Part shown: one piece after another, positions 5,343-17,052 of the stretch
Position numbering within the stretch: position 1 is the first letter of the stretch
Layout of the letters: the number at the start of each line of letters is the position of its first letter
NCBI GenBank assembly: GCA_022823185.1
Contig: JAJDXQ010000019.1
Coordinates: 1-64,000 of the forward strand
DNA from: Caldilineaceae bacterium
GTDB lineage: Bacteria; Chloroflexota; Anaerolineae; Caldilineales; Caldilineaceae
Length of the DNA: 64,000 nt
Direction of reading: 5' to 3'
Notes under the pieces: model-generated
Database searches by the model: none
What the model was told of the DNA's origin: nothing
What the model saw: the letters and a program-made list of their open reading frames with translations, nothing else
Position numbers and translations under genes: made by a program

Positions 5343-6644
5343 TCAGATGCTCCTGAACGCCCGCATTCGAGCGGTGTACGCGGCCTGGGGAATGGGTCCT
5401 TCGAGCAGGGGATCGCCGGTCTCCTCCATCCAGTCGCGCAGGCGCCGCGCCAGATCATCTCTTATGCCGGCGTAGTCCGGGTTTTCGGCCAGGTTGTTCT
5501 TTTCCAATGGGTCCTTCTCCAGGTCGAACAGCTCGAAAGGCGGGTGATACATCTCCGTGTAGGGCATGTCCAGGGCCACGCTGGTCTCAGGATACCCCTT
5601 GGCGTTGCTGAGGTAGTCGGGCGGTGTCTCAATCGTCGGCGCGAACTCGAAATTGGCGATCAGTTTCCAGCGCTCCGTGCGGATGGCGCGCATGGGATCG
5701 TAGTAGGTGTGATAGGTCTTTTCAGCGAAGACGCAATCGCTCTCAGTATAGGGTTCTCCGCATAACAGACGCCAGTAGCTGCGCCCTTGCAGATTCTCCG
5801 GTGCATCAATCCCCAACATGTCAAGCACGGTGGGCACAAAGTCCACGTGCGTGACGAACTCCGAATAGCGCCGGCCCCCCGCCAACCCCGGGATGCGCAT
5901 GAGCAGCGGAACCTCGATGCCGGCGTCGTAGAGGCTCATCTTGGCCAGCGGGAAGGGGATGCCGTGGTCGGCGGTGAAGACAACGACCGTGTCGTCCGCG
6001 ACGCCCGCTGTTTCCAGCGCTTCGAGCACCCTGCCAAACGCCTTGTCGATCGAGGCAACCGAGGCCTCCATATCGACCATATCCTCGCGCACCTCGGGAA
6101 TGTCCGGCAGGTAAGGCGGCATGGCGACCGCATCAGCGTCGATCTTCTGCACGTCATGCGGGAAGGGACGGTGCGGCTCGGTAAAGCCGATCTGGGCGAA
6201 GAAGGGGGCCGCATCCGGCGCGCGCTGCGCCAGGAAACTGCAACACGCGGTTGCCAGCTCGGCGCAGCTTCCTCTGGGATGGACATGCTGATAGCCGCAG
6301 CGTTCCGGACTGTTGGCTTCATGTTGGGTACCGAAGAGACGGGTCTCGTATCCGTTCGCGGCGAGAAGCTGGGCGAGATGGCGCTCGTCCGGCTTCAGGT
6401 CATTTGCGAAGCCGGAATGGGCCAGCCCGACCACACCGTTGGCGTGCGGGTAGCGGCCGGTCCAAAGCGCCGCCCGCGACGGGCTGCACTGGGGCGCTAC
6501 GCAGAAGCTGTTTTCGAATTGGAGCGCGGATGCGGCGAAGGCGTCGATATGCGGTGTGCGGACGCCCGGAACGCCGTAGCAGCCCAGATAGCGGCCCAGG
6601 TCGTGGCAGATGAATACGAGGATGTTCGGTTGCTGCTCACTCAT
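5343..6644 (-). CDS. Sulfatase (formylglycine type)
   Basis: A 433-residue sulfatase. The N-terminal metal ligand region is FICHDLGRYLG, and the active-site motif C-S-P-S-R lies at about 53-57, ready for formylglycine formation. The VVFTADHG motif near residue 230 provides the second metal site, and AEKTYHTYYDPMRAIR is typical of the heparan/choline-sulfatase-like branch. There is no signal peptide. It is convergent with the broken hydrolase and does not closely resemble the sulfatase at 227. Likely removes sulfate from carbohydrate; the exact substrate is unknown. Confidence 0.93.
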   Translation of the reverse strand: MSEQQPNILVFICHDLGRYLGCYGVPGVRTPHIDAFAASALQFENSFCVAPQCSPSRAALWTGRYPHANGVVGLAHSGFANDLKPDERHLAQLLAANGYETRLFGTQHEANSPERCGYQHVHPRGSCAELATACCSFLAQRAPDAAPFFAQIGFTEPHRPFPHDVQKIDADAVAMPPYLPDIPEVREDMVDMEASVASIDKAFGRVLEALETAGVADDTVVVFTADHGIPFPLAKMSLYDAGIEVPLLMRIPGLAGGRRYSEFVTHVDFVPTVLDMLGIDAPENLQGRSYWRLLCGEPYTESDCVFAEKTYHTYYDPMRAIRTERWKLIANFEFAPTIETPPDYLSNAKGYPETSVALDMPYTEMYHPPFELFDLEKDPLEKNNLAENPDYAGIRDDLARRLRDWMEETGDPLLEGPIPQAAYTARMRAFRSI

Positions 6645-6790: not shown

Positions 6791-7864
6791 CTACCGTCTG
6801 GAAAGGCTGGGGTGAACGCGGGTGTAAATGCGGCGCTCGTCGTCTGAAGTTGTGGCCAGGAGGTCCAGCTGGTCATAGGTGCCGAGAGCAATCAACTTAT
6901 CTTCGGCTTCCAGGGTGAAGTCCAAATTCGGATTTACCGCGATCTGCCCTGTCTGTCGGCGGACCGCCAGGATGCTGGCGCCTGTCGTTTTGCGGATTTC
7001 GGCTGCGGCCAAGGTCTGTCCGACAAGCGGCGAACGTTCGCTGACAAGGATGTCGCCAATCAGAATGCCCGGCTCTTCGCTATTCACGGTATCCGGTGGC
7101 ATCACCACATCCATGAACTCGACGATATTGGGCGAGAGCATCTGGCGCGCCATGCGATGACCGCTGGCCACGTAGGGGTTGATGATGTGATCCACGCCTG
7201 CGCTCTTCAATTTGCGCTCGCTGCCGTGACTGTTCGCGCGCGCGCTGATTGTCAGATTCGGGTTCAACCCGCGGGCCGCCAGCGCAACGTAGACATTGTC
7301 GGAGTCGTTGGGCAGGCAGCAGCAGATTCCTATTGCCTTCTCGATTCCCGCCTGTAACAGGATGTCGTCGTCGGTCGCGTCTCCTTCGACAAAGGTCGCC
7401 CCCAGGTTCTCCAACTCCGTACGCAGGCTTGCCTGAACATCGATCGCAACCAGCTCCGAATCGGCCTGAAGAAGCTCCTTGACCACTTGCCCCCCCAGGC
7501 GGCCGTATCCGCAGATGATGAAGTGCGCGTTTAACTTCCTGATGCGGTTCTGCATGCGTCTTCTCCGTATATGCCGGCGAAATTCACCGGTCACGAAAAA
7601 CTCCGCGACCGTGCTGAATGTATAGGCGGTGGCGCTGACGCCCATCACGATCATGACGCCTGTGAATATGCGTCCTGTCGGTGAAAGTTGGCGCACTTCG
7701 CCGAAACCGACGGTGCTGAGCGTGATTATGGTCATATAGAGACTGTCGGTCCAGGACCAGCCTTCGAGCAACATATAGCCAAGACTGCCGAAGGTCAGCA
7801 GCGCCAGAAAGATCACCAGGACCGTTATCAGGGTTCGATAGAAGTTCCGTTCAGCAACCGTCAA
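6791..7864 (-). CDS. Two-TM potassium channel with TrkA N and C domains
   Basis: Membrane K+ channel of the Ion_trans_2 type with a cytoplasmic RCK/TrkA regulatory part. Hydrophobic segments lie at about 10-32 and 66-90, with the selectivity filter T-V-G-F-G at 51-55 between them. After a basic linker (RRHIRRRR), a Rossmann NAD-binding TrkA_N domain starts with GYGRLG at about 119-124. A TrkA_C domain occupies the last 90 residues. The best start is a TTG at 7864 preceded by AAAGGA; no ATG fits better. It is a single gene with no clear operon partners. Role in K+ homeostasis is inferred from the family. Confidence 0.9.
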   Translation of the reverse strand: MTVAERNFYRTLITVLVIFLALLTFGSLGYMLLEGWSWTDSLYMTIITLSTVGFGEVRQLSPTGRIFTGVMIVMGVSATAYTFSTVAEFFVTGEFRRHIRRRRMQNRIRKLNAHFIICGYGRLGGQVVKELLQADSELVAIDVQASLRTELENLGATFVEGDATDDDILLQAGIEKAIGICCCLPNDSDNVYVALAARGLNPNLTISARANSHGSERKLKSAGVDHIINPYVASGHRMARQMLSPNIVEFMDVVMPPDTVNSEEPGILIGDILVSERSPLVGQTLAAAEIRKTTGASILAVRRQTGQIAVNPNLDFTLEAEDKLIALGTYDQLDLLATTSDDERRIYTRVHPSLSRR

Positions 7865-8087: not shown

Positions 8088-10223
8088 TCAGAGAGGCGAT
8101 TGAGGAGCCTTCGCCTCCGGCGGCACGTTATTCTTTGTGTCGATATTTTCGTCTGCCGATAGTTGCATCTGTGTGGTCATCTCTTCCATCAGCTCATCCA
8201 GCAGGGCTTCCCTGATCTGCGACTGGGGCTCTTCGGCCATCCCTTCCGCGACTTCGAAGGCAGCTTCCACCGCGTACATGACGGCCTCCCGCTCTGAAAG
8301 GCCGAGCTGGTCGGCGGATTCGCGGACTGCGTCAAGCGAACTGGCGACCACGTCGTCCAACTCCATATCACCTTCATTCGCCCCGTGGATAACACCGTAA
8401 ACGACGCCCTTGACCGCGTCCAATGGCCGGGCGCCGGCACTGCGCGTGGCGGTAAGGGCGCCACTGACGGCGGCCCCGACATAGCGGTTGCCGTGGGCCC
8501 CCCTGCCCGCGATGGAACGGATGGCTCCTTCTGTGGCGCCGAAGGCGATTTCGACGCCGTGACGGGTGATGTCGCGCGATCCGTGGCTGGCGCGGGCCAC
8601 GGCCTGGCCGACTTGCGCGCTGACCTGCCTGGCGGTGGCGCCGCCGAGGGCGATGCCGTCGACCGTGTAGCGGATGGAAGAGGCGATCTGGTAGGCGGTT
8701 ACACCGGCGGCGACATTCAGGCCGGGGATGGCTGGCAGGTAGCGAAGGCCCGCCAGCGGAAACTGGGAGATCGAACTCAGGCCCGGCACGAAGCTGAGCG
8801 CGCGCAGGTTTTCGCGCGTCTGCGCCATCAGCTCGTTCATGACAACTTCGTTCCTCGCCTCTCCTTCCTCCTGTATCCGTCCCAGCGCGCCCAGCGTAAG
8901 GAGACCGAGAAAGAATGCGATAATGAACAGAAAGTCATACCCTGTCAGAAAGACGGCGGGAAAGCTCACGATGCGGGCGGGGTCGATCCACCTGAAAATG
9001 ATCTCCAGTTGACGGGCATTGAGAAAGTCCACCAGCGCCCCTCCCAGCAGAGGGCTGATGCCGGCGCCCAGATTGATGGCAAGCGAGGACGCGGTCAGGA
9101 ACGCCGTCGCTCTGGCCGGCGGAGCCATCTTCATGCGGATCGCAGTGGAGGCCACTTCGATGCCGGCGGTGGCAACGCCGAGCAGGAAATGAAAGAAGAA
9201 AAGGAGAGGCATGGTGAGCGCGTGTCTGTCAGGATTCGTAGCGAAGGTCCACCCCAGGATAACCAGAAGAAAGAGGGGGGCGCAGATCGAAAGAATCGCC
9301 TTGCAGCCGAAGCGGTCGGCGTAAGCCCCCCAGACGCGCAGAAAGAGGACATTGGAGAGCTGGCTCAGCACACCGAGGCCGACGACGAGCGCAAGAGGCA
9401 GCTCCAGCCGGATCAGCATGTAGACGGCGAAGAACGGAACGGCGAGCTGCGCTACGAAATTCCAGGTAAAGAGGAAGAAGAGCAGCCTTCTGAAATTGTC
9501 ATCCTGCAAGGGCCCGGCAAGCATCTGTAGAATCGACGGCCTTGCGCCTTCCGGTTTCGCCATACGCGGTTCCGGGATCGCCGTGGTCACGGCGTCGGAA
9601 CAGAGGCCGAAGACGACGCTTCCAAAGAGGATCGCGTAGGAGTAGCCGAAGATGAGGTTTGGAGAAGGCGCGTTTGCTGCCCACCAGTCGATAAAGAGCG
9701 CGGCCGCCAGACCGGACAACGCCGCGGAAGCCGTTGCGGTCCGCAATCGCTGCGCAAAAAATCCGCCGATAGCGCCGGAGGGAGCCAGGTCGCGCAGCCA
9801 GCTGGTCCATCCGGTAATTTCAATGGCGTTGCCCGCGCCGCGAATTGCAGTCAAGAGCAACAGGAGCGTGACCGCGACCGGGCTCGGCGAGATGATCGCG
9901 AACGGGATCAGCCCTATCAACAGCCAGGAGAAATCGACCGCGACCGAAGCCGGAATCGTAACGGCTTTGCGCATGCGGATGCGTTCGATCATGACGACGG
10001 CCGCGATCTGGAGCGGCTGCATGATAAACGGAATCGCGATCAGGATGCCAATGTGAAAGTTGGATGCGCCGAGAGCCAGAGCGTACGCGGCCAGAAACCC
10101 CCCTGAGACCAGGCCGTCGATGGCGGAGGCGGCAATGGTACGCGTGGTCAGGGCCCTCATGCCGCGCCGGGGCAGCTCATTGGATTGCAGATCTTCGGGT
10201 TGAAACAGGGATAAGAAAGGCAC
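8088..10223 (-). CDS. MFS transporter with long Gly/Ala-rich C-terminal extension
   Basis: Residues about 20-460 form a 12-helix major-facilitator-like permease, with repeated hydrophobic blocks such as GGFLAAYALALGASNFHIGIL and YDFLFIIAFFLGLLTLG. After the last helix comes an unusual soluble region of about 240 residues. It has periodic G-A-x-x-G motifs (FGATEGAIRS, VVYGVIHGANEG) and a helix-rich end (SLDAVRESADQLGLSEREAV). The total of 711 residues is much longer than standard MFS proteins. A divergent paralogue lies at 10432-12489 with the same architecture. Substrate unknown. The two genes share a 208-bp promoter region. Confidence 0.85.
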   Translation of the reverse strand: MPFLSLFQPEDLQSNELPRRGMRALTTRTIAASAIDGLVSGGFLAAYALALGASNFHIGILIAIPFIMQPLQIAAVVMIERIRMRKAVTIPASVAVDFSWLLIGLIPFAIISPSPVAVTLLLLLTAIRGAGNAIEITGWTSWLRDLAPSGAIGGFFAQRLRTATASAALSGLAAALFIDWWAANAPSPNLIFGYSYAILFGSVVFGLCSDAVTTAIPEPRMAKPEGARPSILQMLAGPLQDDNFRRLLFFLFTWNFVAQLAVPFFAVYMLIRLELPLALVVGLGVLSQLSNVLFLRVWGAYADRFGCKAILSICAPLFLLVILGWTFATNPDRHALTMPLLFFFHFLLGVATAGIEVASTAIRMKMAPPARATAFLTASSLAINLGAGISPLLGGALVDFLNARQLEIIFRWIDPARIVSFPAVFLTGYDFLFIIAFFLGLLTLGALGRIQEEGEARNEVVMNELMAQTRENLRALSFVPGLSSISQFPLAGLRYLPAIPGLNVAAGVTAYQIASSIRYTVDGIALGGATARQVSAQVGQAVARASHGSRDITRHGVEIAFGATEGAIRSIAGRGAHGNRYVGAAVSGALTATRSAGARPLDAVKGVVYGVIHGANEGDMELDDVVASSLDAVRESADQLGLSEREAVMYAVEAAFEVAEGMAEEPQSQIREALLDELMEEMTTQMQLSADENIDTKNNVPPEAKAPQSPL

Positions 10224-10431
10224 AGAAGGGTATTCTATATCAGCCGCTTTGGCTCGCTCCGAATGATCTCGACTTGCATTGCAGCCAGGCAGGATAGCAC
10301 AGCCGGTCGGTGGCGATGGCTGGTTCCTCCGGCTCCGCAGACACCGGTAGAGAGATCTTAATTGTGGCGCTGATTTATCTCAGCCCTTGGCATATGGTAA
10401 CATGAATTCTACCACAACAGATTGATCACAG
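10224..10431. promoter_or_regulatory. Shared divergent promoter region of the two MFS paralogues
   Basis: The two paralogous transporters start at 10223 (minus) and 10432 (plus), so both promoters must lie in these 208 bases or in flanking coding DNA. The plus-strand side contains TTGGCA at about 10386 followed by an AT-rich stretch, but no pair of boxes with good spacing convinced me. Called from gene layout only. Confidence 0.45.
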
Positions 10432-12489
10432 ATGGCGATTCCCGGTTTTCTCCAACCCAGCATAGACCTGACCGAAGAGACGCGTCAACGCGGCCTCAAG
10501 ACGTTGACGTTCCAGGCGATCGCGGCTTCGGGGGCCGATGGCCTGATGTCGGGGGGATTTCTGGCTGCATTCGCCTTGCTGCTGGGCGCGTCCAACTTCC
10601 ACATCGGCATCCTTACAGCCCTGCCGTTCCTGATGCAGACAATCCAGATTATGGCGGTCGTCGTGGTTGAGCGTTTGCGCATGCGGAAGCTGATCGCGGT
10701 GCCGTCCTACTTTACCGTTTATATTTCCTGGGCGCCGATTGCCCTGATTCCCTTTATCGTCGACGTGCCCGATTCGCGTGCCGTCCTGTTGCTGTTGTTT
10801 TTCACGGGGATTCGCGGGGTGGGAAGCGCGCTGGTGAATACAAGCTGGACCAGCTGGCTGCGAGAGATGGCTTCGGCAGGGGCGATGGGGGATTTCTTCG
10901 CCCAGCGGTTGCGTGTTGCGACGATCGCCGCGGCGGCGAGCAGCCTGGCAGGCGCATTCTATATCGATTGGTGGAAGGGTATCGCGGCCGAGGAGAGTGT
11001 CGTCTTTGGCTACTCGTACGCGATGCTGTTTGGAAGCATCGGGCTTGGTATGGGCGCGGTTTTCATGATGGCGCGCACGCCTGAGCCGCGCATGGCAGCG
11101 CCCGAAGAGGTTCGGTCTTCGATCTTGCGCACGCTGGCGGCGCCGCTACGGGACGTCAACTACCGACAGATGGTCAGCTTCTTGACTTTGTGGAACTTTG
11201 TCGCGCATCTGGCGGCGCCGTTTTTCACCGTCTACATGCTGACGAAGCTGGAACTGTCGCTGTCGCTCGTGGTCGGGCTGGGCGTGTTGAGCCAGGCGGC
11301 GAACGTGCTGTTTCTGCGCGTGTGGGGCCCGCAGGTCGATCGCTATGGCTGCAAGGCGGTTCTTTCGATCTGTTCTTCCCTTTATTTCCTGGTAATCCTG
11401 GGATGGACCTTTACCACGTTGCCGGAAAAGCACGCGTTGACAATGCCGCTCCTGCTGTTTTTGCACTTTTTGATTGGAATCGCCAGCGCGGGCATTAACG
11501 TGGCATCAACGACGATTCGGATGAAGATGGCGCCGCAGGCGCAGGCGACCGTATTCCTGACCATGTCATCTTTGGCCGCCAATCTGGGCGCCGCGATCAG
11601 CCCCCTCCTGGGCGGCGCGTTTGTCGACTTTTTCAGTGTGCGGCACCTGAAGGTGGCGGTGGAGTGGGTCGACCCGGAACGGGTGGTGAGCTTCCCGGCG
11701 ATGTTTTTGACCGGCTACGACTTTCTGTTCACCGTTGCCTTCGTTCTGGGTCTGTTCACGTTGGGAACTCTTGCCCGAATCAAGGAGGAGGGAGAGGCGG
11801 AGAGCGAGGTTGTGCTCGAGGAGCTGATGTCGCAGACGAGGGAGAACCTGCGCGCGCTCAACTTTGTGCCGGGTTTGAGCTTTGTCACCCGGTTGCCCCT
11901 CGCGGGCCTGCGCTATCTCCCGCCGATTCCCGGGCTGAATGTCGCCGCCAATGTCACAGCCTATCAGATCGCTTCCTCAATCCGCTACACAGTAGAGGGG
12001 ATCGCGTTTGGGGCGGGAACGGCAAGGCAGGCCCAGAGCCGCATCAACCAGGTCGTCGCGCGCGCGGGACAGGAGTCGCGGGATATTTCGCGGCAGGGCG
12101 CTGCGATCGCGTTCGGCGCGACGCAGGGGTCGATGCGGGCCATCGCCAAAAGCGGCCTCGGAACGGGACGGTTGGTCAGAAGCTCGGTGCGAGGCGCCCT
12201 GACTGCGGTGAGCCGGGCGGGGGGCCATCCAGCGGACGCGGTGAGAGGCGCTGTTTCCGGAGCGATTCACGGGGCGAACGACGCCAATCTGGAGGTGGGG
12301 CAGGTGGTCGCCGAATCGCTTGACGCGGTACGGGAATCTGCCGCTGAGCTGGGCCTTTCCGAGCAGGAGGTCGTCAAGTATGCGACGGAGGCCGCGATCG
12401 GAGCGGCGGAGGAGCTGGCCCAGGAACACCAGGAGCAAGTGAGAGAGGCCGTTTTGGACGAACTCATGACCCATGCAGATGAGGGGTGA
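10432..12489 (+). CDS. MFS transporter with long Gly/Ala-rich C-terminal extension (paralogue)
   Basis: A 685-residue paralogue of the 8088-10223 protein. The N-terminal halves match closely (shared GASNFHIGIL; GGFLAA[FY]AL; ERxRMRK), as does the extension (LNVAAxVTAYQIASSIRYTV). The MFS part covers about residues 20-450. The tail after about 470 has the same G-A-x-x-G periodicity (FGATQGSMRA, AVSGAIHGAND) and a final amphipathic helix rich in Glu and Ala. ATG at 10432 has a weak ribosome-binding site. The gene arose by inverted duplication or was kept as a divergent pair. The tail probably has a cytoplasmic role, which is unknown. Confidence 0.85.
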   Translation: MAIPGFLQPSIDLTEETRQRGLKTLTFQAIAASGADGLMSGGFLAAFALLLGASNFHIGILTALPFLMQTIQIMAVVVVERLRMRKLIAVPSYFTVYISWAPIALIPFIVDVPDSRAVLLLLFFTGIRGVGSALVNTSWTSWLREMASAGAMGDFFAQRLRVATIAAAASSLAGAFYIDWWKGIAAEESVVFGYSYAMLFGSIGLGMGAVFMMARTPEPRMAAPEEVRSSILRTLAAPLRDVNYRQMVSFLTLWNFVAHLAAPFFTVYMLTKLELSLSLVVGLGVLSQAANVLFLRVWGPQVDRYGCKAVLSICSSLYFLVILGWTFTTLPEKHALTMPLLLFLHFLIGIASAGINVASTTIRMKMAPQAQATVFLTMSSLAANLGAAISPLLGGAFVDFFSVRHLKVAVEWVDPERVVSFPAMFLTGYDFLFTVAFVLGLFTLGTLARIKEEGEAESEVVLEELMSQTRENLRALNFVPGLSFVTRLPLAGLRYLPPIPGLNVAANVTAYQIASSIRYTVEGIAFGAGTARQAQSRINQVVARAGQESRDISRQGAAIAFGATQGSMRAIAKSGLGTGRLVRSSVRGALTAVSRAGGHPADAVRGAVSGAIHGANDANLEVGQVVAESLDAVRESAAELGLSEQEVVKYATEAAIGAAEELAQEHQEQVREAVLDELMTHADEG

Positions 12490-12673: not shown

Positions 12674-13924
12674 TTAGTGGTACGGGTCTGCCGCGTCGCG
12701 CAAACCGTCGCCGAAGAAGTTGAGCGCCAGGACGGTGATGATGACGAAGACGCCGGGCAGCAGCAGCCAAGGCGCCAGCGCGACCGAGCGCAGATTCTGG
12801 GATTCCCGCAGGAGGACGCCCCAACTGATCGTCGGAGGCCGCAGCCCCAGGCCCAGGAAGCTGAGCGAGGTTTCACTGAGGATCATCGCCGGGACGGCCA
12901 GCGTGGCCGAGGCGATCAGGTGGCTGAAGAATGAGGGCACCATGTGGCGCAGAATGATGCGCATCTCGCCGGCGCCGGCGAAGCGGGCCGCGAGGATGAA
13001 CTCCTCCTCGCGCATGGAAAGGAAGCGCCCGCGTACCGCGCGCGCCAGGAACGTCCAGCCGATCAGCGAGAGGATGATGGTGATGCCGAAATAGACCCTG
13101 ATGTTGGACCAGTCCTGCGGCAGGGAGGCGCTGAGGGCCATCCAGAGCGGGATGGAGGGCACCGAACGGATGAACTCGATGATGCGCTGGATCAGGACGT
13201 CGATTACGCCGCCGTAGAAGCCGGAGATGCCGCCGAGGACGACACCAAAGACGAAGCTGAGCGCGACGCCGATCAGGCCGATCGAAAGAGAGATGCGGGA
13301 TCCGTAGATGATGCGGGTGAACATGTCGCGGCCGAGCTTATCGGCGCCGAGCAGAAATATGGTGGAGAAGGACGTCTCTGCGGCCTCCCCGGCAGAGGCG
13401 TCGTATATCGGTTCGCCGATGCCGAAGAGGTGGCGGCTGTTCGGAATGACCCCCCAGAGCTTATAGGAATCTCCTTCGACCCAGAAGCGGACGGGGTAGC
13501 GCACGGTTTCGTCAATCTGGAATTCCATGCGCAGGGTGTCGGGGTTGCGGGCCTGGGTGAGGCCATAAACGAAGGGTGTCCCCTGGAACTCGCCGTTGTG
13601 GAAGAAGTGGAGCCGTTGCGGCGGCGCGTAGGTGAGGGCGACCTCGTAGGTTTCGGGATTGTAGGGGGCCAGAAACTCGGCGAAGATAGCGATCAGGTAG
13701 AGGAGGATGACGACGACACCGCCCGCGATGGCCATCTTGTGCTTGATGAAGCGCCACCACATCATCTGCAGCGGCGTAGCGATGTAGATGCGTTCTTCGT
13801 CTTCCTCGACAGAGAGATAGGTGTCGGTATCCTCGACGTCAGCGCCCAGAAGATCGCCCGTCGCGGCGGCAGAAGGCTCGGTGGTTGTCTGCGTTTGGCC
13901 GCTGAGAGATTGGTCAGCGCTCAT
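12674..13924 (-). CDS. Oligopeptide-type ABC permease (OppC/DppC family)
   Basis: Inner-membrane permease of the PepT family, 416 residues. The start is ATG at 13924 with GGGAGG just upstream, one base after the stop of the upstream permease, so the two are translationally coupled. One transmembrane helix (about 65-85) is followed by a long external insertion of about 110 residues. Then come LGADKLGRDMFTRIIYG and the BPD_transp_1 domain with EEFILAARFAGAGEMRIILRHM, the EAA loop that contacts the ATPase. The insertion makes it longer than E. coli OppC. It is the third gene of a binding protein-B-C operon that lacks its own ATPases. Confidence 0.93.
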   Translation of the reverse strand: MSADQSLSGQTQTTTEPSAAATGDLLGADVEDTDTYLSVEEDEERIYIATPLQMMWWRFIKHKMAIAGGVVVILLYLIAIFAEFLAPYNPETYEVALTYAPPQRLHFFHNGEFQGTPFVYGLTQARNPDTLRMEFQIDETVRYPVRFWVEGDSYKLWGVIPNSRHLFGIGEPIYDASAGEAAETSFSTIFLLGADKLGRDMFTRIIYGSRISLSIGLIGVALSFVFGVVLGGISGFYGGVIDVLIQRIIEFIRSVPSIPLWMALSASLPQDWSNIRVYFGITIILSLIGWTFLARAVRGRFLSMREEEFILAARFAGAGEMRIILRHMVPSFFSHLIASATLAVPAMILSETSLSFLGLGLRPPTISWGVLLRESQNLRSVALAPWLLLPGVFVIITVLALNFFGDGLRDAADPYH

Positions 13925-13925
13925 T

Positions 13926-14912
13926 TTACCCTCCCATCCGGATGCGGGGATCAAGCAGCGCCAGCATTATGTCCGAAATCAGCGTGCCGATGATGGTCAA
14001 GGTGCTAAGCATGAGCAGAAAGCTGGAGGCCAGGTACATATCCTGGGTCAGCAACGCACGCAACAGCAGCGGGCCGGTGGTGGGCAGGCTGAGCACCACT
14101 GAGACGATGATGGAGCCGGATACGAGTTGCGGCAAGGCCCAGCCCATGGTGCTGACGAAGGGGTTGAGGGCCACGCGGGTGGGATATTTGAACACCAGCC
14201 TCATCTCGTTGAGGCCCTTGGCTCGTCCGGTCTCCACATAGGGTTTGCTCAACTCGTCGAGCAGATTGGCGCGCATGGTGCGCACAAGACCGGCAGAGCC
14301 GGCCGTTCCCACGATGATGGCGGGCGCCCAAAGATGCTTGAGCATATCGCCAAACTTGGCAAAGCTCCAGGGTTGGTCGATAAACTCCGGCGAAAAGAGG
14401 CCTGAGATATTGGTGCCGAAATAGGCAAGGGCGACCCACATCATGATCAGGGCGAGCATGAAGTTGGGTGTGCCAAGCCCGACGAAACTGAGGGCCGTGA
14501 AGATATAGTCTCCGATCGAATATTGGTAGACAGCGGAGAATATACCGATCACAAGGCCGACGATCCATGAGAATATCAACGCAGCGAAGGCGACCACCAC
14601 CGTCAGGCCGAGCCGCTCCCAGATGAGGTCGCTCACAGGAAGCTGCCACTCAAAGGAGAAGCCGAAATTGCCCTGCATGACGTTGCCCAGCCACTTGGTG
14701 TAGCGTACCGGCGCCGGCTGGTCGAGACCGTACTGTTTGACGAGCGCGTCGATCTCGTCCTGGCGCACATCGTCACCCATCGCCATGCGATTGGCGATAT
14801 AGGAGGTCATATAGTCGCCGGGGGGCAGCTCGATGATGATGAAGGAGATCAAAGAGATCATGAACAGCGTCGGCACCATCAGGATGAGGCGGCGAAAGAT
14901 GAATGAGGACAT
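13926..14912 (-). CDS. Oligopeptide-type ABC permease (OppB/DppB family)
   Basis: A 328-residue permease with about six transmembrane helices. Features typical of OppB/DppB are the N-terminal RRLILMVPTLFMISLISF helix, IIELPPGDYM, and the EAA loop YVETGRAKGLNEMRLVFKY near residue 225. It is the second gene of the 17052-12674 operon, between the binding protein and the OppC-like gene. A spacer of about 150 bases separates it from the binding protein, and one base from the next gene. Likely imports peptides or oligosaccharides; both occur in this family. Confidence 0.95.
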   Translation of the reverse strand: MSSFIFRRLILMVPTLFMISLISFIIIELPPGDYMTSYIANRMAMGDDVRQDEIDALVKQYGLDQPAPVRYTKWLGNVMQGNFGFSFEWQLPVSDLIWERLGLTVVVAFAALIFSWIVGLVIGIFSAVYQYSIGDYIFTALSFVGLGTPNFMLALIMMWVALAYFGTNISGLFSPEFIDQPWSFAKFGDMLKHLWAPAIIVGTAGSAGLVRTMRANLLDELSKPYVETGRAKGLNEMRLVFKYPTRVALNPFVSTMGWALPQLVSGSIIVSVVLSLPTTGPLLLRALLTQDMYLASSFLLMLSTLTIIGTLISDIMLALLDPRIRMGG

Positions 14913-15063
14913 TGAACACCGGTGGTTAGTGGTTTATGGGCAGTGAAACACCGGCGGCCTGTGGTCGGCTGCCAGTGAATTCACCGGCAACCGACCACTT
15001 TGCGCTGAGCCGACGCCATCCGCCGGCCCTTGGCGAAGCGCAAATTACAACTGGCCGCTGAAG

Positions 15064-17052
15064 TTAAGAGCTCTTCAAGTAGTACTGCTCGGGCACGGTG
15101 CTGCCAGGCGTCTGCAGATGCCAGGAGGAGACCCCCTCGCGCGGGACGTTGCCCATGTTCTTGCTGACGACGACAGGCGCAGGCAGGCCGACCGCCATGC
15201 TGAACGTCCACAGATTCTCCGTGTTGAGATCGAGGATCTGCTGGAAGAGGCGCTTATGCTCTTCCACGTCCGGCGTGGCCTTGATCGCCTCGTAGAGATC
15301 GATGGTGGTGCGCAGGTCGCCTGTCGGCTCTACGCCGTTGACGCCGCCGGAATTGTACCAGAGGGCATGGCAGGCGACGTGGTGGGAGCTGCCCTGGGCA
15401 AAGGGCAGGAAGTGCCGCGGGTCGATCAGCGGGTTGAACTCGGCCGAGCCGGTCCAGACAGTCATATCGTGCTCGGAGGCCTGGACGCGCTGGCTCCAAA
15501 GCGGGCGGGCTTCCTCTTTCAACGTCAACTGAACGCCAACATCGGCCATATACTTCTGCATCAGCTCGCCAATGCTGCGCCAGGAGCCGAATACGGGCGC
15601 GTAGTTGAAGATAATGCTGAGCGGATCGCCGTCCGGGCGCAGGCGAATCCCGTCGGAGTTCGTCTCGGTCAGGCCCATCTCGTCGAGCATGGAGTTGGCC
15701 AGGTCCGGATTGAACTCGATGGCGTTCTTTGCCTGCACCTCATCGTAGAAGGGGGAGGTGGCAAGCGGCGACGGCTGCCCCGGCTCACCCTGGCCGAGGT
15801 AGACGGCCTCGATCACCTCATCGCGATTCATCGCGTGCGACATGGCGAAGCGGAAGCGCTTGTCGTTGAAGATCTCGTGCAGGACCGGATCCGGATGGCA
15901 GAGATTGAAGGAAATGACGGCATCGCTCGTTTCGCCGTACTTCCAGAGAAGGATCTCGTAGTTGCCGACCTCTTCGTTCTCTTTGAAGAGCGAGAAGTTC
16001 TCCATCAGGATGTGGCGGTGCTGCATGTCGATATCGCCGGCGACGGCGCGCAGATTCAGAACCTCGGAGTCCTCTACAATGTCGGTGGAGACCCGGTCGA
16101 TGTAGGGCAGCTGGTTGCCGGCGGTGTCCACCTTCCAGTAGTAAGGGTTGCGCTCCAGCACAACGGGGACTTCGGGCGTAATCTTGGTAAAGCGCCAGGC
16201 GAACAGGACCGGCACGTCGGTGTTGAGGCGCGGGGTGAGCCGGTTGTTGAAGTACTGATGCCAGAACTCGAACTCGTTCTCCTGCGCCTGCGCGTTCAAC
16301 TCCTCTTCGTCGGCGTAGTTGCGATGGAACTGGGTCAGGTAGTGCTTGGGATACCAGGTCATCGAAGCGCCGTTGGCGCCGGCCATCAAGGTCATGAAAA
16401 TGCCGTGTGGGCCAGGGAAGGTGAAGCGGATGGTGACATCATCCGGCGCGTCCATGACGACCGGCTCGCCGCCCACGGTCAGCCAGACGGGGAAGCTGGG
16501 GGCCAGGTCCTCATCGCCCAACACGTCCTCATACCAGAACATGAAGTCTTCGGAGGAATGGGGCGTGCCGTCCGACCACTTGACGCCTTCACGCAGGTGG
16601 AAGGTGTAGGTCGTGCCGTCATCGGAGACTTCCCAGGATTCGGCCAGATTGGGGCCCATATCGGAGCCGTCAATGTTGTAGCGCACCAGCTGCGGGTACA
16701 TGAGGCGATATCGGAAGATGCCGGCATCGCCAGGGCCGACGCCGATGCGGCGCCAGGTGCCGCCGTACTCGCCGACCTCATTCAAGGGCTCGATCACCAT
16801 CGGGTTGGAAGGCAGCCGCTCGTCCACAGGGGGGATTTCGCCGTTGGCGACCATATCGGCCAGCATCGGCGCTTCATTGTACTGGGATGCGGGCATCGCG
16901 TCGCCGCTGTCGGCTGCGGCCGGCTCTTCGGCAGCGGGCGCCTCAGCAGCGGCAGGCGCGTCGCCGCCGCCGCAGGCAGCCAGCACCGCGCCCGCGGTGG
17001 CAAAGGCGGATACCTGCAAAAACCTTCGTCGTGAAATGTGCCTCTGGGTCAT
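15064..17052 (-). CDS. ABC substrate-binding lipoprotein, family 5 (peptide/nickel type)
   Basis: Extracytoplasmic binding protein of 662 residues. The N-terminus has a twin-arginine stretch (SRRRF, residues 7-11), a hydrophobic core and the lipobox L-A-A-C with Cys27, followed by an Ala/Glu/Pro-rich linker. A family-5 body starts near residue 70 (LAESWEVSDDGTTYTFHLREG, and LRFAMSHAMNRDEVIEAVY further on). The ribosome-binding site GGAGG is seven bases before ATG. It is the first gene of the operon with the two permeases downstream. A candidate promoter lies about 310 bases upstream. Ligand could be a peptide or an oligosaccharide. Confidence 0.94.
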   Translation of the reverse strand: MTQRHISRRRFLQVSAFATAGAVLAACGGGDAPAAAEAPAAEEPAAADSGDAMPASQYNEAPMLADMVANGEIPPVDERLPSNPMVIEPLNEVGEYGGTWRRIGVGPGDAGIFRYRLMYPQLVRYNIDGSDMGPNLAESWEVSDDGTTYTFHLREGVKWSDGTPHSSEDFMFWYEDVLGDEDLAPSFPVWLTVGGEPVVMDAPDDVTIRFTFPGPHGIFMTLMAGANGASMTWYPKHYLTQFHRNYADEEELNAQAQENEFEFWHQYFNNRLTPRLNTDVPVLFAWRFTKITPEVPVVLERNPYYWKVDTAGNQLPYIDRVSTDIVEDSEVLNLRAVAGDIDMQHRHILMENFSLFKENEEVGNYEILLWKYGETSDAVISFNLCHPDPVLHEIFNDKRFRFAMSHAMNRDEVIEAVYLGQGEPGQPSPLATSPFYDEVQAKNAIEFNPDLANSMLDEMGLTETNSDGIRLRPDGDPLSIIFNYAPVFGSWRSIGELMQKYMADVGVQLTLKEEARPLWSQRVQASEHDMTVWTGSAEFNPLIDPRHFLPFAQGSSHHVACHALWYNSGGVNGVEPTGDLRTTIDLYEAIKATPDVEEHKRLFQQILDLNTENLWTFSMAVGLPAPVVVSKNMGNVPREGVSSWHLQTPGSTVPEQYYLKSS

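Follow-up and report, generated by a model that had tools for sequence, protein, structure and literature searches.

A predicted 22-residue-repeat solenoid extends paired MFS transporters of Chloroflexota and may connect them to ion homeostasis

The window, a 64,000-nt stretch of a Caldilineaceae genome, encodes two divergently oriented MFS transporters (P0001 and P0002), each extended beyond its last membrane helix by 230-256 residues in which a conserved hydrophobic junction precedes a predicted cytosolic helical solenoid. Our preferred reading, with a rough probability of 0.5, is that the solenoid regulates the transporter within an ion-homeostasis gene neighbourhood, in a manner comparable to ProP. 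The locus is organized as follows:

6791..7864, minus strand: ion channel with TrkA-N and TrkA-C domains (Ion_trans_2, TrkA_N and TrkA_C above the Pfam cut-offs), on the same strand as P0001 and downstream of it
8088..8186, minus strand: variable C-terminal extension of P0001, ~32 residues plus stop
8187..8666, minus strand: 22-residue helical repeat of P0001, residues 520-679, matching tail profile A1
8667..8861, minus strand: PGL junction of P0001, residues 455-519
8862..10223, minus strand: MFS transporter part of P0001, residues 1-454
10224..10431, no strand: intergenic stretch of the divergent genes (ORF coordinates; sequence read)
10432..11793, plus strand: MFS transporter part of P0002, residues 1-454
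11794..11988, plus strand: PGL junction of P0002, residues 455-519 (alignment A3)
11989..12462, plus strand: 22-residue helical repeat of P0002, residues 520-677, an alpha-alpha solenoid in the model

As the preliminary description had it, the two genes form a divergent pair of MFS paralogues. P0001 (8088-10223, minus strand, GTG start, 711 aa) and P0002 (10432-12489, plus strand, ATG start, 685 aa) lie 208 bases apart and share 424 of 674 residues (63%) in a gap-free alignment, with 62% identity over the MFS part. MFS_1 (PF07690) was the sole Pfam family above cut-off in both proteins (56 and 49.7 bits, gathering cut-off 33.4; E 4e-15 for P0001 and 3.3e-13 for P0002), and Foldseek matched the MFS part of P0002 to solved MFS transporters, these matches being generic. 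A simple hydropathy and charge scan, used instead of a dedicated topology predictor, returned 12 peaks within residues 34-450 of each protein and an extra weak peak at 475-493; Lys/Arg counts alternate between the loops of P0002, with an excess in the inside loops that fits a cytosolic location of both termini. These sequence features give good support to each protein being an MFS secondary transporter of 12 helices whose two termini are cytosolic, transport itself being predicted. The two genes are a duplicated pair in their clade, and searches of the window's own genome found no third copy.

The tail spans residues 455-711 in P0001 and 455-685 in P0002 and is built of two parts, a 65-residue PGL-rich hydrophobic junction and, after it, a helical repeat whose period is 22 residues. 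The junction, ~80% identical between the paralogues, is the most constrained stretch of the tail. Periodicity of the repeat stood out against 1000 shuffles (z 4.9 in P0002 and 4.1 in P0001), with further Gly/Ala lags at 4 and 44, and lag 22 ranked within the top three in 9 of 10 MFS tails and in 6/6 of the other carriers tested; the lag analysis did not reveal it in the tail of L029. The Gly/Ala periodicity initially ascribed to the tail holds for the repeat but not for the first 65 residues of the tail, which constitute the conserved, non-periodic junction. Likewise, the Glu-rich helix proposed to close the tail is present as the last helix of P0002 (residues 664-680), but P0001 continues for ~32 additional residues that are variable in the alignment and missing from P0002.

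Structure prediction of P0002 yielded helices at pLDDT mostly 78-94 over residues 552-680, the C-terminal 129 residues of the repeat, and no confident structure (pLDDT < 50) for junction residues 455-512. The monomer model shows a solenoid instead of a single long coil, and the stacked tandem helix-turn-helix units of an alpha-solenoid are evident in the prediction from the pLDDT, the 22/44 period and the matches to designed repeats. The modelling therefore gives good support to a predicted cytosolic alpha-alpha solenoid of 22-residue helix-plus-turn units. Its best solved match was the de novo designed helical repeat DHR4 (5cwb; VIA-align Z 15.5, rmsd 3.3, 178 aligned, Foldseek E 1.1e-3), and a second designed protein, DHR7 (5cwd), also matched (Z 10.7, Foldseek E 8.7e-4), bearing in mind that helical repeats reach Z values of ~13 through their common arrangement. 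Both are designed, not natural, and share 12-21% identity with the tail, a likeness of fold only. Natural fold matches of the tail model comprised eIF2B-epsilon, eIF5 and Pdcd4 (Z 8-9, identity 3-10%). HEAT-like repeats (PF13513; MA3/eIF5C-type folds) resemble the tail in stacking helical hairpins in tandem, the hairpin measuring 44 residues in the tail versus about 40 in HEAT (PMC11514114).

Searches of Pfam, NCBIfam, PHROGs and PDB sequences assigned the tail to no known family above cut-off. No Pfam repeat model of the HEAT, ARM or TPR type exceeded its cut-off either: HEAT_EZ reached a best E of 0.014 among 24 tails and 11.7-16.1 bits among the matches listed (cut-off 27), and TPR or ARM were absent among the families listed for the tails. 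P5CR_dimer, Toxofilin-like and SpoIIID, all sub-threshold matches, were rejected as identities of the tail.

Tails of this kind are conserved beyond the window, both in further families of Chloroflexota and in the phylum Latescibacterota. Across 400 Chloroflexota genomes, the tail was present in 17/17 MFS matches with at least 44% identity and in 0/34 of those at or below 33%. In 13 orthologue pairs, dN/dS ranged from 0.04 to 0.22 for the repeat and from 0 to 0.07 for the junction (0.03-0.07 for three pairs of the P0001 type and 0 for four of the P0002 type), which confirms, at the sequence level, the purifying selection earlier surmised from conservation between the paralogues. The repeat is predicted to be folded and is conserved in orthologues, rather than being a disordered and unconserved extension. 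Between families it diverges faster than the MFS part, the tails of g2 being just 17-21% identical to P0002 over the repeat; two phyla keep the period and the aligned glycines in most alignment rows. Two loci were left out before the alignments, L006 (cut at a contig end) and L020 (a truncated MFS part with a separate tail fragment).

The preliminary description had also raised the question of whether the tail exists apart from the transporter. It does: the repeat was found alone in six proteins (L050, L053, L060, L117, L118 and L119) and behind a radical SAM domain in one (L112). The MFS-tail profile scored 33-44 bits on these proteins, the best shuffled score being 6.4 bits (500 shuffles for each of 6/7 carriers) and 8.7 bits across all ORFs shuffled alongside, and hhalign related the MFS tails to the stand-alones with 96.4% probability over 136 columns. 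Like the MFS tails, the 6/7 tested display the 22-residue period; unlike them, these proteins have no MFS part. A solenoid module existing on MFS transporters, alone and behind radical SAM is thereby well supported. L060 had no match above threshold in Pfam, NCBIfam or PHROGs, a search of plasmids with a stand-alone protein gave no match, and the PHROGs hits of L117 to phage tape-measure proteins (E 1.5e-5) were attributed to shared helical composition. We set aside as chance or convergence the one-hairpin matches (41-59 model positions) in 7 of the 25 Chloroflexota genomes found with the tail profile (E 1e-4 to 6e-4) and in G499; these are excluded from the repeat counts, as is a 72-codon partial ORF of G120 from the stand-alone count. 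The short protein behind those matches in the seven genomes and G499 looks, by eye, like an HD-domain hydrolase.

Gene neighbours suggest a connection to ion homeostasis. In 5 of the 14 genomes tested, belonging to three families (G122 and G266; G258 and G210; G301), the sole CorA gene adjoins the MFS-tail gene or is one gene away. The only CorA of G004, G002 and G371 sits on a different contig from the MFS-tail gene, and CorA is absent from G055, G339, G448, G447 and G000. G138, a genome without CorA, has its only MgtE gene ending 9 bases upstream of the MFS-tail gene, although MgtE adjoins such a gene in just 1/7 genomes that have it. Four neighbour positions in about 1,700-3,000 genes and 3/5 genera with CorA give a chance of ~1e-7 for the CorA adjacency, a rough hand estimate before correction for choosing the family, and post hoc because the adjacency was noticed after looking. 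In the window, as in L001-L005, the MFS gene(s) have a TrkA-type K+ channel gene as neighbour, a linkage seen across a single genus and therefore counted as one event. Neither this tail nor an MFS-CorA pairing was described in the titles and abstract beginnings of the literature searched, which is no proof of absence.

By analogy, we infer that the solenoid may have a regulatory role: on binding a partner, or in answer to ion conditions, it would signal via the junction to the transporter, much as ProP and BetP are controlled by C-terminal domains of their own in the cytosol (PMC10710835). The protein would serve cytosolic cation homeostasis, to which the CorA, MgtE and TrkA-type neighbours point.

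A possible alternative, if on balance an improbable one, is that the solenoid does no sensing and is a docking scaffold for a CorA or channel complex, or for P0001/P0002 homo- or heterodimers. HEAT-type alpha-solenoids are described as protein-binding in PMC11514114, and 8/9 neighbouring CorA proteins carry an extra tail of 40-95 residues past the second membrane helix, with a common motif, that could be the partner; the CorA of L070, however, lacks it. The window, L001, L002 and L005 retain the two paralogues as a pair, but in L003 and L004 the channel is accompanied by the P0002-type only, which means that pairing of P0001 with P0002 as a heterodimer cannot be a general feature. Unlikely, in our estimation, is the more specific proposal of a family of unrecognised Mg2+-channel partners, whose MFS part would move a cation or a Mg2+/K+-linked counter-ion or osmolyte and whose solenoid would sense ions or dock, forming one module with CorA/MgtE or the K+ channel; the repeat would then represent an alpha-solenoid family that occurs in nature, is so far uncatalogued and resembles helical-repeat proteins made by design.

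We consider it still less probable that the tail forms an amphipathic domain, membrane-associated or phasin-like, that lies on a lipid surface or senses membrane state. The PGL motifs of the junction and its borderline hydrophobic peak (475-493, value 1.2) would suit such a role, as would the membrane association at rest described for the ProP C-terminal domain (PMC10710835), yet no 19-residue window of the tail exceeds about 1.2, and the repeat is modelled with high confidence as a compact solenoid. Stand-alone relatives matched Phasin_2 (PF09361) at E 0.15-0.38, but their 11.4-12.7 bits fall far under the cut-off of 24.9, and P0001 and P0002 gave no Phasin_2 match. Finally, an ordinary helical extension, non-specific and retained through descent with no dedicated function, seems highly improbable as an account of the tail: Gly/Ala-rich helical sequence may arise easily and across families the repeat varies more quickly than the MFS part, but the low dN/dS of repeat and junction already disfavours it, as do the retention of the tail in all 17 closer homologues and the period and aligned glycines shared by two phyla.

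Collectively, a domain unnamed in Pfam and NCBIfam turns up attached to MFS transporters, attached to a radical SAM protein and on its own, three settings for a natural 22-residue repeat close in fold to designed proteins. Its neighbourhoods offer a testable idea, Mg2+/K+ homeostasis, for MFS proteins otherwise merely called transporters. Among known systems, regulation by the solenoid would most resemble that of ProP of E. coli, an osmosensory MFS transporter that, like the window pair, has an extended cytosolic C-terminal domain, which is described in PMC10710835 as controlling activity according to osmolarity and K+. The ProP domain forms a coiled coil according to that source, whereas the window tail is a predicted seven-helix solenoid of 22-residue period, ProP being compared by description. 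If our reading is true, the C-terminal-domain regulation known from ProP and BetP would extend to a different fold.

The two genes under study are divergently oriented, and each encodes an MFS transporter part followed by a C-terminal tail:

8088-10223, minus strand: P0001, 711 residues
10432-12489, plus strand: P0002, 685 residues

Both open reading frames, MFS_1 as the sole Pfam family passing the cut-off in either product, and 63% identity across 674 residues with no gaps bear out the preliminary description of a pair of divergent MFS paralogues. A hydropathy scan of P0002 resolved 12 peaks, all by residue 450, and the Lys/Arg excess on alternate loops places both ends inside. Foldseek matches of the MFS part were scattered across SPNS2, VMAT, NupG, NorA and others, indicating no one substrate; this part would move a solute that the matches do not name.

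Past approximately residue 455, P0002 carries ~230 additional residues and P0001 carries 256, the final ~32 of the latter being variable in the alignment. The profile search of the tail alone, suggested at the outset, returned no known family, with nothing above any cut-off in Pfam, NCBIfam, PHROGs or PDB sequences; a Pfam scan of all 24 tails in the alignment behind our tail profile yielded weak matches only, all scores shown being sub-cut-off. As aligned, the tail opens with a 65-residue junction, in which two PGL motifs and a GLxVAAxVTAYQ segment occur, and continues as a Gly/Ala-rich repeat. Identity to P0002 in most relatives outside its clade was 55-81% in the junction, 38-58% in the repeat and 61-73% in the MFS part, and much lower in a divergent group (L028-L030), whose repeat reached 17-21%. 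Across 13 orthologue pairs, dN/dS stayed within 0-0.07 in the junction, against 0.04-0.22 in the repeat and 0.05-0.15 in the MFS part, which upholds the earlier proposal that the tail is conserved and hence selected, and marks the junction, at the sequence level, as its most constrained stretch. AlphaFold2 assigned pLDDT <50 to most of the junction; this stretch may pack against the membrane or some partner, or too shallow an alignment may be the cause.

Self-similarity of the repeat peaked at lag 22, with 44 and 4 as well. Lag 22 was among the top three in nine of 10 MFS tails picked from the 30 rows of a second alignment (the exception being L029) and in all six other carriers tested, so that the Gly/Ala periodicity noted originally holds for the repeat. 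The tail-alone model predicted helices of ~14-23 residues separated by short turns, with pLDDT mostly 78-94 over P0002 residues 552-680. The solved structures matching best were helical-repeat proteins designed de novo (DHR4, Z 15.5, 178 residues, 3.3 A), followed by natural HEAT-like folds (Z 8-9); since helical repeats may reach Z ~13 without kinship, as the tool warns, we claim for the modelled repeat only the class of alpha-alpha solenoid.

The tail also occurs without the MFS part, as the preliminary description had proposed to check. Six stand-alone proteins (L050, L053, L060, L117, L118 and L119) scored 33-44 bits against the MFS-tail profile, as did a radical SAM protein (Radical_SAM, E 4.5e-23) through its terminal part, which consists of the same 22-residue helical repeats:

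L112:1394-3298: radical SAM protein with repeat tail

With 500 shuffles apiece, the L112 tail and the five distinct stand-alones (L050, a near-copy of L060, being left out) reached at most 6.4 bits; the maximum over all ORFs shuffled was 8.7. In reverse, a stand-alone profile recovered MFS tails in five of 301 genomes plus the six stand-alone proteins, and profile-profile comparison of the two sets gave 96.4% probability over 136 columns. Weak phage tape-measure matches of L117:245-874 (best E 1.5e-5, PHROGs) probably reflect common helical composition. In two close genomes, stand-alone repeat proteins (L073, ~8946-9390; L074, ~9945-10346) lie near a gene that by eye resembles GroEL, and short proteins resembling HD-domain hydrolases by eye (L051-L052, L054-L058, L113) end in one hairpin similar to a tail unit.

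Scanning species genomes yielded 20 loci, from Chloroflexota and Latescibacterota; within the window's family 9/46 genomes carry the tail, and within its genus 6/17. Among 400 Chloroflexota genomes, 25 matched the tail profile, 16 via an MFS protein and three via a short stand-alone protein (G096 has both); seven with a weak one-hairpin match only were set aside. The MFS part alone retrieved 51 matches in 50 of 400 genomes of the phylum: 17 at >=44% identity, identical with the 17 tail carriers from the tail-profile search, and 34 at <=33%, in ORFs of 411-575 codons with no tail match. Of 64 genomes from the phylum to which the Latescibacterota genome G448 belongs, seven matched (five MFS, one radical SAM, one weak one-hairpin). 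Nesting of Latescibacterota proteins among Chloroflexota rows in a midpoint-rooted tree suggests inter-phylum transfer. Inside the genus, the P0001 type and the P0002 type form sister clades and so appear to stem from a duplication at that level; only the P0002 type is retained in L003 and L004.

CorA (PF01544), a Mg2+ channel singled out post hoc once neighbourhoods had been seen, adjoins the MFS gene or lies one gene off at nine loci (Pfam-confirmed for L007, L012, L070 and L077). Eight of these proteins carry an extra C-terminal stretch past the second membrane helix with a shared motif:

L007:4248-5354: CorA with extra stretch
L012:8261-9526: CorA with extra stretch
L013:8245-9504: CorA with extra stretch
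L014:4611-5870: CorA with extra stretch
L016:8261-9526: CorA with extra stretch
L018:8240-9493: CorA with extra stretch
L019:8261-9526: CorA with extra stretch
L077:6990-8264: CorA with extra stretch

The stretch spans 40-95 residues, its motif resembling RFVPTAVDPxRLT; the L070 CorA, which lacks it, is of another family. CorA occurred as a single gene in eight of 14 genomes tested and in none of the other six; it neighbours the MFS-tail gene in five, from three families (G122, G266, G258, G210, G301), and lies on another contig in three (G004, G002, G371). The Mg2+ channel MgtE, present once in 7/14 genomes, adjoins the MFS gene solely in G138, where its stop codon precedes the MFS ATG by 9 bases and CorA is absent. 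At L001-L005 and in the window itself, a TrkA-domain ion channel takes the neighbouring place; its family has three channels in each of six genus genomes. The variation in orientation and neighbour gene across families favours a functional link, with the reservation that CorA was chosen post hoc. By eye, the window also holds a sulfatase-like ORF adjoining this channel (5343-6644, minus strand) and, downstream of P0002, three oligopeptide ABC transporter-like ORFs (12674-17052, minus strand; two permeases and a binding protein).

Collectively, these data define the tail as a real, conserved and uncatalogued helical-repeat domain, probably folded, on a distinct MFS subfamily. Most likely, a cytosolic solenoid joined to the last membrane helix through the constrained junction would regulate the transporter or couple it to a partner. 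The neighbour genes point to a putative role in cation homeostasis, the tie to Mg2+/K+ transport being promising but unproven. The nearest functional precedent is ProP, whose extended cytosolic C-terminal domain, according to an excerpt of PMC10710835, governs activity with osmolarity and K+.
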